From the NCBI GenBank assembly GCA_015056155.1, contig SVGU01000008.1, forward strand, positions 1-53,439: DNA of 53,439 bases. The letters are read 5' to 3'. Each line of letters starts with the position of its first letter. Within the stretch, counting starts at the first letter, position 1. The translations under genes and the position numbers were made by a program. The DNA is from Clostridiales bacterium (GTDB lineage Bacteria; Bacillota; Clostridia; Christensenellales; Aristaeellaceae). The notes below the pieces were generated by a model that saw nothing but the letters and a program-made list of their open reading frames with translations, ran no database searches and was not told where the DNA came from. Shown in pieces: positions 28,787 through 31,854 of this stretch.

Positions 28787-28815
28787 TTGACAAACGGGGA
28801 GCGGCGTGATATCCT
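28787..28815 (+). promoter_or_regulatory. Promoter of the methionine transporter operon
   Basis: A perfect TTGACA (28787-28792), a 17-base spacer and TATCCT (28810-28815). Transcription would begin near 28822, about 27 bases before the leader peptide and 360 before metQ. Confidence 0.75.
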
Positions 28816-28848
28816 TTTTGTAATTTCCTGAGGAAGGGAGAAGGCGTG

Positions 28849-28947
28849 ATGAAGCTGAATCGCACCGCGATGTTCATGATGATGCCCATGTGCATGTGCC
28901 GCATGAGCATGCGTTGCTGTGCCGATCTTCGCTGCGCCCTTCGATAA
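28849..28947 (+). CDS. Met/Cys-rich leader peptide of the metQNI operon
   Basis: 32 codons ending in TAA. AAGGGAGAAGG lies just upstream of the ATG. Nine Met codons (28849, 28870, 28876, 28879, 28882, 28888, 28894, 28903, 28909) and five Cys codons (28891, 28897, 28915, 28918, 28933) are packed into it; the core reads MFMMMPMCMCRMSMRCC. The next structure is an intrinsic terminator (28991-29035), then the methionine transporter genes. This is the layout of classical ribosome-mediated attenuation: scarce charged tRNA-Met would stall the ribosome in the Met run. Stalling would leave 28926-28945 free to pair with 29003-29012 inside the terminator. Translation and mechanism are inference; the codon content, signals and pairing are visible. 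Confidence 0.75.
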   Translation: MKLNRTAMFMMMPMCMCRMSMRCCADLRCALR

Positions 28948-28990
28948 CGCTGACCGGAGCCTGAACGGGAATGCCGGTGCTGAGCGGATG

Positions 28991-29035
28991 AAAGAGGAAG
29001 CTGCATCGAAGAGATGGAGACTTCCTCTTTTCTTT
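28991..29035 (+). terminator. Attenuator: terminator upstream of metQ
   Basis: AAAGAGGAAG (28991-29000) pairs perfectly with CTTCCTCTTT (29021-29030). The inner part CTGCATC / GATGGAG extends the stem with one mismatch around a GAAGA loop. The T-rich tract TTTTCTTT follows (29028-29035). The apical strand GCATCGAAGA (29003-29012) is also complementary, 9 of 10 bases, to TCTTCGCTGC (28926-28935) in the leader, and ATCGAAG (29005-29011) to CTTCGAT (28939-28945). Either pairing would break the terminator. Confidence 0.75.
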
Positions 29036-29069
29036 CGTAAAGATTCAGCGGAAACGGAGGTTCCTTCCT

Positions 29070-29186
29070 ATGTGGAATACAGCCAGTCTGATGGCGCACT
29101 GCAACCGGGAGAGCAGGCGAATGCGACGCATCGCCGTCCGCTGTTTCCTGTGCGCCCATTTGAATGAAAAGGAGAGACTGTCATGA
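29070..29186 (+). CDS. Small ORF translationally coupled to metQ
   Basis: 38 codons, beginning MWNTASLMAHCNRESRRM and rich in Arg, Cys and Met. CGGAGG lies nine bases before the ATG, and the stop codon overlaps the metQ start as ATGA. It lies after the attenuator, so it would only be translated when transcription reads through. It may be a second regulatory leader or a means to keep ribosomes on the mRNA up to metQ. I see no known family. The open frame could be chance, but ribosome binding site and stop position argue for translation. Confidence 0.5.
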   Translation: MWNTASLMAHCNRESRRMRRIAVRCFLCAHLNEKERLS

Positions 29187-30034
29187 AGAAGTTCCTGTCC
29201 CTGATCCTTACCGCGCTGCTGCTCCTGTCTGCCACCGCTGCTCTGGCGGATTCCATCGTCATTGCCGTGCCCAACGACCCCACCAACGAGGGCCGCGCCC
29301 TGCTGCTGCTGGAAGCCAACGGCATCATCAAGCTGGATCCCGAAGCCGGCGTCACCGCCACCAAGGACGATGTGATCTGGAATCCCCTGGGCATTGAGTT
29401 CTACGAGGTTGAGGCCGCGATGGTCCCCAATGTGCTGCCCGATGTGGACTACGCCATCATCAACAACAACTTCGCGCTGGACTTCGGCCTGAATCCTGTG
29501 GCGGATTCCCTGCTGATCGAGAGCGCTGAGTCCCCCTATGCCAACGTTCTGTGCGTCAACGCCGGCAACGAGAACACCGACGCCGCCAAGGCGCTGGTCG
29601 CTGCCCTGACCAGCCAGAAGGTCGCTGACTTCATCACCGCCACCTACGAGGGCGCTGCCGTGTCCGTCGTTGCCGAGCCCACCGACGGCTTCGATCCCAC
29701 CGTGGATTACGCCGCGCTGGCCGGCACGAAGATCACCGTCGCCGCTTCTCCCACGCCCCATGCCCAGATCCTGGCCATCGCCAAGGAGATCCTGGCCGAG
29801 AAGGGCGTTGAGCTGCAGGTGATCGAGTTCTCCGATTACATCCAGCCCAACATGGTCGTGGACGCGGGCGAGGTGTTTGCGAACTACTTCGCGCACATCC
29901 CCTACCAGGACAACTTCAACGCCGAGAACGGCACCAAGATCGTGGTCGTCGCCCCCATCCATGTGGAGCCCATGGGCCTCTACGGCGGCAAGCAGGCCGA
30001 TCTGTCTGTCCTGACCGTTCCTGCGGCTGAATAA
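29183..30034 (+). CDS. metQ: Circularly permuted MetQ/NlpA-type methionine-binding protein
   Basis: 283 residues. A signal peptide ends at ALA (22-23); unlike most Firmicutes MetQ there is no lipobox Cys. The mature chain starts with what is normally the second part of MetQ: IAVPNDPTNEGRALLLLE (27-44), DVDYAIINNNFAL (87-99) and ESPYANVLCV (116-125). After a linker (about 158-181) comes what is normally the N-terminal part: SPTPHAQIL (189-197), VIEFSDYIQPN, FANYFAHIPY and IHVEPMGLY near the C-terminus. Every expected segment is present, but the order is swapped. The product should still fold as a two-lobed binding protein, delivering methionine to MetNI encoded next. The ribosome binding site AAAAGGAGAG precedes the ATG. 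Confidence 0.92.
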   Translation: MKKFLSLILTALLLLSATAALADSIVIAVPNDPTNEGRALLLLEANGIIKLDPEAGVTATKDDVIWNPLGIEFYEVEAAMVPNVLPDVDYAIINNNFALDFGLNPVADSLLIESAESPYANVLCVNAGNENTDAAKALVAALTSQKVADFITATYEGAAVSVVAEPTDGFDPTVDYAALAGTKITVAASPTPHAQILAIAKEILAEKGVELQVIEFSDYIQPNMVVDAGEVFANYFAHIPYQDNFNAENGTKIVVVAPIHVEPMGLYGGKQADLSVLTVPAAE

Positions 30035-30115: not shown

Positions 30116-31150
30116 ATGATCGAGCTGCGCAACCTGTCCAAGAGCTTCGTCACCGCGGACGGCCCGGTGGACGCGCTGAGAAATGTGTCCCTGACGATCA
30201 ACAACGGCGATATCTACGGTATCATCGGCATGTCCGGCGCCGGCAAATCCACGCTGGTGCGCTGCATCAACATGCTCGAGCGCCCTACGGAGGGCTCCGT
30301 CCTGCTGGACGGACGCGATCTGGGCATGATGGGCAAGCGCGAACTGCGCGATGTGCGCCGCCGCGTGACGATGATCTTCCAGGGCTTCAACCTGCTGATG
30401 CAGCGCACCTGCCTGCAGAACATCATGCTGCCGCTGAAGCTGGCGGGTGTGAAGCGCGAGGAGGCGGTCAAGCGCGCGCTGGAGATGCTGGAGATCGTCG
30501 GGCTGCCGGATAAGGTGAATGCCTATCCCGCGCAGCTGTCCGGTGGTCAGCAGCAGCGCATCGCCATTGCCCGTGCGCTGGCGACCAACCCGGACGTGCT
30601 GCTGTGCGACGAGGCGACCTCCGCCCTGGACCCCAAGACCACCCACGCGATCCTGGAGCTGATCCGCGATATCAACAGGAAGCTGGGCATCACGGTCATC
30701 GTCATCACCCACCAGATGAGCGTCGTGCAGGAGATCTGCAACCGTGTGGCGATCCTGGAGCACGGCAGCGTGGTGGAGGAGGGCGAGGTTGCGCAGGTCT
30801 TTGCCAACCCGCAGGCCGAAGCGACGCGGAACCTTGTCTATCCCGAAATGGCGGATGCGAACGTTGCGCTGGGCGACAAGCACGGTCAGCGCGTGCGCAT
30901 CATCTTCAACGGCGCCATCGCCGCCAACGAGCCGCTCATCGCCAGAATGGCCATGGAGGCCGGCATCGCGGCGAGCATCCTGGGCGCGTCCACCCGTGCG
31001 GTGGGCGACCGTGCCTATGGTTACATCCTGCTGGAGATCCCCGGCGGTCCGGACGAGCTGGCCAAGGCGGTCAACTTCCTGCGCCAGACGCCGGACGTCA
31101 CGGTCTCCGTCGAGGTCGACTATGCGCAGAATGAGGGGGTGAAGGCATGA
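30116..31150 (+). CDS. metN: Methionine ABC transporter ATP-binding protein
   Basis: 344 residues. The ATPase domain (1-240) has Walker A GMSGAGKST, Q-loop MIFQGFNLLMQRT, signature LSGGQQQRIAIARAL, Walker B VLLCDEATSALD and switch VITHQM. The C-terminal NIL domain (about 265-340; RVRIIFNGAIAANEPLIARM, VEVDYAQ) binds methionine in MetN and shuts transport down, a family property that supports the substrate call. The start is MIELRN, with GGAGG eight bases upstream; the earlier ATG at 30101 overlaps this site. It overlaps metI by ATGA. Confidence 0.95.
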   Translation: MIELRNLSKSFVTADGPVDALRNVSLTINNGDIYGIIGMSGAGKSTLVRCINMLERPTEGSVLLDGRDLGMMGKRELRDVRRRVTMIFQGFNLLMQRTCLQNIMLPLKLAGVKREEAVKRALEMLEIVGLPDKVNAYPAQLSGGQQQRIAIARALATNPDVLLCDEATSALDPKTTHAILELIRDINRKLGITVIVITHQMSVVQEICNRVAILEHGSVVEEGEVAQVFANPQAEATRNLVYPEMADANVALGDKHGQRVRIIFNGAIAANEPLIARMAMEAGIAASILGASTRAVGDRAYGYILLEIPGGPDELAKAVNFLRQTPDVTVSVEVDYAQNEGVKA

Positions 31151-31854
31151 ATTTCGCCAGTGCATTTACGCCTGCCCGCCTGGAGGAGGCGCTGGAGGTC
31201 ATCCAGACCAAGTTCCTCTTCGCCGCGTGGGAAACGCTGTATGCGACGATCCTCGCGACCCTGTTTGCCATCATCATCGGCCTGCCGCTGGGCATGGTGC
31301 TCGTCGCCGGCGACGCCAAGGGCATCCGCCCCCTGCCGCCCCTGCTGATGAAGCTGCTCAACGTCATCATCAACCTCCTGCGTTCCGTTCCCTTCATCAT
31401 CCTGATGGTCATGGTCATCCCGCTGACCCGCCTGATCGTGGGCACCTCGGTCGGCACGGTGGCGTCCATCGTCCCGCTGGTCATCGCGGCGTTCCCCTTT
31501 GTGGCGCGTCTGGTGGAGGGCAGCCTGCGCGAGGTGAACCCGAACATCATCGAGACGGCGCAGTCCATGGGCGCGACGCCCCTGCAGATCCTGCTGCGGG
31601 TGATGCTGCCCGAAAGCGTGCCGAGCCTGATCAGCAACTTCACCCTGGCCATCACCACCATCATGGGCTACACGGCCATGTCCGGCGCAGTCGGCGGCGG
31701 CGGCCTGGGCATGATCGCCATCACCTACGGCTACAACCGCTACCGCTATGCGGTGCTGTACGCGGCGGTCATCGTGCTGGTGATCATCGTGCAGGTGATC
31801 CAGTCCTTCGGTACCTGGCTGGCCAAGAAGAGCGATAAGCGCCTCAAAAAGTGA
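31147..31854 (+). CDS. metI: Methionine ABC transporter permease
   Basis: 235 residues, five membrane helices as in MetI. The coupling motif that contacts the ATPase reads EVNPNIIETAQSMGATPLQIL, followed by VMLPESVPSLISNFTLAITTIMGYTAMSGAVGGGGLG, which is characteristic of this permease family. Two subunits form the channel. Coupled to metN by ATGA; a bidirectional terminator follows. Confidence 0.95.
   Translation: MNFASAFTPARLEEALEVIQTKFLFAAWETLYATILATLFAIIIGLPLGMVLVAGDAKGIRPLPPLLMKLLNVIINLLRSVPFIILMVMVIPLTRLIVGTSVGTVASIVPLVIAAFPFVARLVEGSLREVNPNIIETAQSMGATPLQILLRVMLPESVPSLISNFTLAITTIMGYTAMSGAVGGGGLGMIAITYGYNRYRYAVLYAAVIVLVIIVQVIQSFGTWLAKKSDKRLKK

Follow-up and report, generated by a model that had tools for sequence, protein, structure and literature searches.

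A methionine- and cysteine-codon leader peptide as a probable ribosome-mediated attenuator of a metQNI operon in Clostridia, followed by a second conserved upstream ORF

In a stretch of 53,439 nucleotides from a Clostridiales bacterium (contig SVGU01000008.1 of assembly GCA_015056155.1; called here the window), the region 28787-29035 very probably acts as a ribosome-mediated transcription attenuator that controls the metQNI operon in response to sulfur amino acids. The region holds a small ORF (uORF1) of biased codon content, a terminator and a covarying antiterminator, and the same device is found at other sulfur genes. For this region we infer that the leader is translated and that ribosomes stall on it, as well as which signal they report and with what kinetics. 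A preliminary description had recognized here the architecture of a leader-peptide attenuator, and it is now supported by conserved codons, by a terminator and an antiterminator that covaries, and by the leaders of other sulfur genes.

Table 1. Features of the leader region and of the metQNI operon, in window coordinates.
Feature	Position	Strand	Basis
Sigma-70-type promoter, TTGACA-17-TATCCT, extended TG (-35 begins at 28787, -10 ends at 28815)	28787..28815	+	Promoter signals in sequence
Shine-Dalgarno GGGAG of uORF1	28836..28840	+	Sequence; purine-rich stretch kept in genus alignment
uORF1, Met/Cys-rich leader peptide, 32 codons (ATG at 28849, TAA at 28945-28947)	28849..28947	+	ORF list, codon count, homologues
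Proposed stall region, codons 8-24 (8 Met and 4 Cys codons)	28870..28920	+	Codon count; consensus MxMCMCxMCMxxCA
Antiterminator strand, leader end	28927..28939	+	Duplex energies, covariation, folding
Antiterminator partner, within terminator 5' arm and loop	28998..29011	+	Duplex energies, covariation, folding
Intrinsic terminator (hairpin 28991-29030, T tract 29028-29035)	28991..29035	+	Folding, comparison of relatives
uORF2, second leader ORF, 38 codons, stop overlapping metQ start (ATGA)	29070..29186	+	ORF list; conserved counterparts
In-frame CGA-ATG pair of uORF2	29118..29123	+	Sequence, motif counts
metQ/NlpA-type substrate-binding protein, circularly permuted	29183..30034	+	Family and PDB matches
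metN-type ATPase with NIL domain	30116..31150	+	Family matches
metI-type permease	31147..31854	+	Family matches

As far as sequence signals go, the leader has the short ORF, the ribosome binding site and the promoter of its own that characterize an attenuator. The TG-extended promoter lies directly 5' of the leader, and its -35 and -10 positions are kept in most rows of the genus alignment. Nine codons of uORF1 specify Met (codons 1, 8, 10, 11, 12, 14, 16, 19 and 21, eight of them within codons 8-21) and five specify Cys (15, 17, 23, 24 and 29); this recount agrees with the 32-codon ORF, ribosome binding site and codon numbers described previously. Against a background of 3.3% Met and 0.95% Cys codons in seven window genes, the binomial probability of at least 13 Met and Cys codons among 31 is 1.4e-10, a value that applies to a single ORF and not genome-wide.

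SAM riboswitches and T-boxes are the usual, textbook regulators of methionine genes in Bacillota. Neither had been visible at the leader on first inspection, and the Rfam scan concurs: no match reached the gathering score across the full window, and the covariance models of the SAM-I riboswitch (RF00162) and the T-box (RF00230) gave no match in the leader. Two weak E-value matches there, psm_mec and sR19, are far under threshold and were rejected as known RNAs. Elsewhere, the source genome contains two SAM riboswitch matches, away from this leader, and nine T-box matches at E <= 0.001, at least three of them over the gathering score. The leader is thus an extra device rather than a replacement. 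In the family, SAM riboswitches occur in 262 of 308 genomes and T-boxes in all 18 of the relatives tested.

The terminator starts after a gap of 43 nt from the uORF1 stop codon and, as in attenuators, stands between the leader and the first gene. The perfect 10-bp outer stem (28991-29000 with 29021-29030) and the T tract are both present as previously noted, and the fold of 28948-29040 has an energy of -40.1 kcal/mol (z = -4.6). A simple terminator scan, the loop limit of which is 8 bases, missed it. Two pairings between the leader end and the terminator had also been noted, and both exist in the sequence: 28926-28935 with 29003-29012 (9 of 10 positions) and 28939-28945 with 29005-29011 (7 of 7). 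When close relatives are compared, the former is conserved but the latter is not, and the 7-base pairing was discarded as an antiterminator.

A mechanism may be envisaged in which RNA polymerase makes the uORF1 RNA and a ribosome translates it. If the supply of charged Met- and Cys-tRNA suffices, translation would run to the stop codon, where the ribosome would cover 28927-28939; the terminator would form and transcription would end at the T tract. Should Met-tRNA or Cys-tRNA run short, the ribosome would stall between codons 8 and 24, and the leader end could engage 28998-29011 while the terminator still lacks its 3' arm, resulting in readthrough into metQNI.

Folding of an RNA that ends before this 3' arm is consistent with such a scheme. 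The core strand 28926-28935 has a probability of 0.88 of pairing with the 5' side of the terminator when a ribosome sits on the Met run, compared with 0.46 for a ribosome at Cys codon 23 and 0.00 for a ribosome at the stop codon. When the ribosome is absent, the probability is 0.12 for the core and 0.38 for the longer strand 28926-28945; in the free fold, the leader end is mostly paired with upstream leader sequence, which raises the question of a protector, or anti-antiterminator, hairpin. In these shorter RNAs, covering or freeing the leader end shifts the pairing in the direction proposed earlier; in the full-length minimum-energy fold, the terminator is preferred whatever the state of the ribosome. 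The trp leader of E. coli, used as a yardstick in the same fold test, likewise keeps its terminator in every state. Thus the model needs co-transcriptional kinetics, that is, the order of synthesis, as is the case for trp. If this order is assumed, the antiterminator is, in silico, exclusive with the terminator and is freed by a stalled ribosome.

The conservation of uORF1 was studied upstream of metQ homologues. At E <= 1e-20, 228 of 308 family genomes match the window metQ; the best 80 metQ loci were taken from named contigs, and the distinct upstream regions number 170 overall. uORF1 was defined as an ORF of 15-45 codons in the last 450 nt, with at least six Met and Cys codons after the start and a share of at least 24%. 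The count used 143 of the 170 regions: 24 were dropped by name (L094-L111 and L195-L200), mostly for a misplaced aligned gene start or a distant match, and three had less than 400 nt. Three dropped regions (L111, L199 and L200) nonetheless contain Met/Cys-rich ORFs, and the 143 still include some MetQ paralogues of ordinary domain order (L201-L210). A Met/Cys-rich small ORF was found at 56 of the 143 loci in sense, at none in antisense and in 8 of 2,860 dinucleotide shuffles. By the same fixed criterion uORF1 is absent from the other 87, and many loci of genus g4 carry uORF2 alone.

Thirty-five leader peptides align to the consensus MxMCMCxMCMxxCA, with only two invariant columns, both Met. 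A cluster of codons for the amino acids of the operon is therefore conserved, as in attenuators, and the Met and Cys codons that an alignment of orthologous leaders was expected to show are indeed kept. For uORF1, an arrest peptide of the TnaC type was rejected, since two invariant columns give no support to a conserved residue sequence. Of the 308 family genomes, 53 contain a match to a profile of the leader at E <= 1, a number that falls to 39 at E <= 0.01; many of these genomes had contributed to the profile. About a dozen further matches above E = 0.01 were left out of the reading. No match was obtained in 90 other genomes from the order, four of which belong to the same family. Twelve of the 56 leader loci (L060, L062, L063, L065, L066, L069, L071, L077, L078, L080, L087 and L093) lie on no sampled family contig. 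Nine of them are assigned to Lachnospiraceae (five), Lachnoclostridium, Oscillospiraceae, Eubacteriaceae or 'Bacterium 1XD21-13', and three only to Clostridia. With about half of the known species covered, this suggests, short of proof, that the leader device is wider than the source family.

The two competing structures are conserved as well. A terminator-like hairpin with a T tract occurs within 200 nt after the leader at 56 of 56 loci, versus 25 of 168 mononucleotide-shuffled regions. At these 56 loci, the last 36 nt of the leader plus 3 were paired with the 5' arm and loop of the terminator. Own duplexes have a mean energy of -14.9 kcal/mol versus -12.7 (sd 0.36) for swapped partners, and none of 5000 permutations is as low, in a test that is conservative because swaps also pair near relatives. 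At 11 loci the own partner brings no advantage over swapped ones (z above 0), a count left as it is although for two of them, L062 and L063, the program picked a doubtful hairpin or stem.

Covariation was then scored on 16 of 17 genus-type segments (L015, identical to L008 in this segment, was omitted), which are close relatives and hence not independent. In the 13-bp antiterminator 93.3% of the cells are paired, versus 43-58% when the strands are slid. Its covariation score is reached by none of 500 shuffles; four of the 13 pairs are changed on both sides, which 16 of 500 shuffles equal, and its further pair types are ordinary (reached by 340 of 500). For the terminator stem, 92.9% of the cells are paired and the covariation score is again reached by none of 500 shuffles; double-changed pairs and further pair types are ordinary there (reached by 263 and 262 of 500, respectively). 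The clearest compensatory case is L022, in which TCTTCTG opposite CAGAAGA replaces TCTTCG and its partner. Both stems that an alignment of relatives could have revealed as covarying, terminator and antiterminator, are thus kept, with compensatory changes in the latter.

Leaders of the same build also precede other genes, for which the names metY, 'cystine-type' and 'methionine transporter' are family matches, several of them below curated cut-off. They were found before metN (L266, L267, L270 and L276, hairpin and T tract read by eye), before metY, encoding an O-acetylhomoserine aminocarboxypropyltransferase (L277, TIGR01326 above cut-off, hairpin by eye), and before an SBP_bac_3 system (L278 and L279, hairpin and T tract by eye), whose permease has a cystine permease model as its best match, far below cut-off. 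They also precede SDF symporters at all seven loci read (hairpin by eye; seven of eight loci, the partial L364 being left out). These symporters match Pfam SDF, their best NCBIfam models being DctA and GltP, below cut-off; they may be cystine carriers. At L277, L278, L279 and L357 (metY, cystine-type SBP, symporter) inspection by eye suggests two successive terminators, of which the second lies around GCGTCCGC...GCGGACGC or a similar sequence, then T. The weak profile matches L269, L271, L272, L274 and L275 and the pattern matches L233 and L234 were taken as chance.

The mean Cys share of Met plus Cys codons is 0.35 at metQ (n = 56) and 0.27 at metN (n = 4), and 0.56 at SDF (n = 7) and 0.53 at SBP genes (n = 9, leader peptides hand-picked from 30 loci). 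It is higher at cystine-type genes (Mann-Whitney P = 1.5e-5, with relatives that are not independent), and the Met:Cys codon mix seems tuned to the downstream gene. Cys codons therefore matter alongside those for Met: the Met signal proposed at the outset stands as far as it goes, but 'sulfur amino acids' fits better as a name for it.

These data bear on the idea that the leader senses any general slowing of translation, for instance by ribosome-targeting drugs, with incidental Met and Cys codons. In the fold test any stalled ribosome frees the antiterminator, as this idea would have it. However, the Met/Cys bias is kept across many genera, the Met:Cys balance follows the gene, and every accepted leader precedes a sulfur amino-acid-type gene by family match once L219 is set aside, so that general slowing appears very unlikely. 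L219, a 16-codon Met/Cys-rich ORF with a hairpin but no visible Shine-Dalgarno, lies upstream of an unknown gene and is a possible exception to the rule. Still less likely, uORF1 and its terminator would form a constitutive partial terminator and regulation would fall to uORF2 alone or to an unseen factor; some relatives do keep a uORF2-like sequence only, with CGAATG in the last 200 nt at 35 of 90 loci that lack uORF1, but both the antiterminator covariation and the codon bias of uORF1 would then be left unexplained. Least likely of all, the peptide itself could be functional, for example in copper or zinc binding through Met and Cys, with the terminator as a mere 3' end: its conserved alternating M-x-M-C-M-C spacing resembles metal-binding motifs, but covariation links the leader end to the terminator loop, a link that a free peptide would not need, and the identified downstream genes are of the sulfur amino-acid kind, none being a metal gene.

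Beyond the attenuator, the conserved uORF2, absent from the preliminary description, sits between the terminator and metQ. Its motifs were counted over 146 loci. In an unbiased 8-mer count of the terminator-to-metQ stretch, CGAATGTG comes top (53 of 146 loci in sense, 1 in antisense), and CGAATGCG occurs at 20 of 146 in sense and 1 in antisense. Among Arg codons directly before ATG in any frame, 92 of 131 are CGA (antisense, 3 of 41); CGA is otherwise rare: in seven window genes it accounts for 4 of the 178 codons for Arg. The motif is read in frame: at 97 CGAATG sites, the CGA-ATG frame is open to a start that has a loosely defined Shine-Dalgarno-like stretch in 88 cases and the other frames in 27 and 10, and of 42 intervals between successive CGAATG or CGATGT sites less than 90 nt apart, 30 are divisible by three. 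The first Arg of 22 R-R-M triplets (AGA 12, CGC 6, CGG 2, AGG 1, CGT 1) is never CGA, which provides a control inside the same peptide. CGA accounts for 19 of the 221 remaining Arg codons of the uORF2s.

The pair also differs with the gene. In-frame pairs before metQ are CGA-ATG in 84 cases and CGA-Cys in 15, versus 8 CGA-ATG and 12 CGA-TGT before 30 cystine-type SBP genes (Fisher P = 7e-5, on related sequences). Before metQ, the codon after CGA-AUG begins with UG or CG in 80 of 84 pairs. The uORFs listed at the seven symporter loci contain no CGA pair. At some loci (L068 and L051 among them) a uORF2-type ORF is followed by a terminator-like hairpin of its own; at others none was seen. The g4 metQ leaders L145, L152, L155 and L177 have a short CGA-AUG uORF and no visible terminator, and some such leaders begin directly behind a promoter-like TATAAT; control at these leaders may be translational. 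Two other readings of the region were dropped: uORF2 as part of metQ, since CGAATG shows no phase preference relative to metQ (36/32/32), and, by eye, an RNA element, for which a three-way junction can be drawn, the motif being in frame. A search of the source genome with the uORF2 pattern gave three matches, two of them out of frame by eye and none being the window's own uORF2, whose Shine-Dalgarno misfits the pattern.

uORF2 probably adds further translation-dependent control. The Arg tRNAs found in the source genome (74% complete) are TCT, CCT and two ACG, with no TCG, as typed by ARAGORN on 19 loci covering 30 of 33 tRNA matches. Since no TCG tRNA was found, CGA would be read by an A34/I34 tRNA, and among the Arg tRNAs found it is presumably readable only by tRNA-Arg(ACG), as ICG, via I:A wobble. 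In a his-leader reporter study, CGA is reported to be read slowly (PMC4046918). Slow decoding of CGA ahead of Met or Cys is thus plausible, and the combination of CGA with a sulfur codon would build into uORF2 a slow step that responds sharply to Met- or Cys-tRNA. According to a review, the 2-thiocytidine at position 32 (s2C32) of the E. coli tRNA-Arg(ICG) blocks CGA reading or binding (PMC5372741). Both tRNA-Arg(ACG) genes have C at loop position 32, and TtcA homologues occur in 31 of 31 genomes, none above curated cut-off and two only at E about 1e-7. A link between uORF2 and thiolation is only hypothetical; in this boldest form, sulfur shortage would cause loss of thiolation and so change CGA decoding in uORF2. 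That uORF2 is a second, different sensor in the same mRNA, based on a slow CGA-Met or CGA-Cys step or, at its boldest, on tRNA thiolation, is a tentative idea, more doubtful than probable.

The MetQ-type protein encoded by the first gene of the operon is circularly permuted. In the two best matches among MetQ-family proteins of solved structure, headed by 4k3f, residues 24-161 align with the second half and residues 183-277 with the first. The two stretches are found in 22 of 22 matched PDB sequences, Pfam agrees with the permuted order, and many relatives match over full length in the same order. Among the literature matches listed, none reports a circularly permuted MetQ. Usual MetQ proteins are lipoproteins with a lipobox cysteine; none was seen by eye in the predicted signal peptide (29183-29260). 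The Campylobacter matches L094-L097 cover a longer stretch, about 1.07-1.25 kb, and could be double-domain MetQ proteins, a clue to the origin of the permutation.

With the trp and his attenuators of Proteobacteria, the attenuator proposed here shares a short translated leader, a run of regulatory codons, an intrinsic terminator, an alternative antiterminator and a stall position upstream of the antiterminator strand. It differs from them in that it would read two amino acids, Met and Cys, in that it is found in Clostridia, and in the CGAATG site of uORF2 that lies 3' of the terminator at 31 of the 56 uORF1 loci. The SAM-I riboswitch and the T-box occur elsewhere in the genome, whereas this device would read codons through the ribosome. 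Taken together, the sequence evidence for a trp-type attenuator that reads Met and Cys is well beyond chance.

Cysteine leader peptides have been described for the cys operons of mycobacteria and P. acnes and for bifidobacterial cbs (PMC1262725), and uORFC-8-2 before cysS in Rhodobacterales ends, like the present leader, in a terminator (PMC8632094). These share with it the Cys codons and a uORF before a sulfur amino-acid gene. They belong to other phyla; the passages cited mention no Met codons, and the mycobacterial leaders, unlike the present one, are described as having no conserved terminator (PMC1262725). Cysteine codons in uORFs of M. tuberculosis are also mentioned (PMC13236596), and sensing of tRNA-fMet at an fthC uORF has been suggested (PMC11109978). 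As to Bacillota, leader-peptide attenuation had not been demonstrated before 2010 according to PMC2965389, which describes His leaders upstream of hisS paralogues in bacilli; in S. aureus, a leucine-rich peptide serves as attenuator for branched-chain amino acids (PMC5794164). Both belong to the same mechanism class, with histidine or leucine codons and other genes. Among the open-access literature matches listed, none reports a methionine leader-peptide attenuator and none a CGA-AUG uORF. The uORF2 motif may be the more original part.

On the attenuator reading, a group of Clostridia largely from the animal gut would use leader-peptide attenuation for a small sulfur regulon comprising Met uptake, metY and cystine-type uptake. 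The genomes of this group mostly hold SAM riboswitches too, and T-boxes where these were tested. This raises the testable question of why charged tRNA would be sensed via a translating ribosome and not by a T-box or through SAM. The CGA-Met or CGA-Cys uORF2, if functional, would represent a new type of codon-context sensor, through which nutrient uptake could be tied to tRNA modification or to decoding by inosine; were the thiolation form true, genes would be controlled via the thiolation of a tRNA that reads a single selected codon. In rumen and gut genomes, such leaders can help to assign substrates to unannotated transporters.
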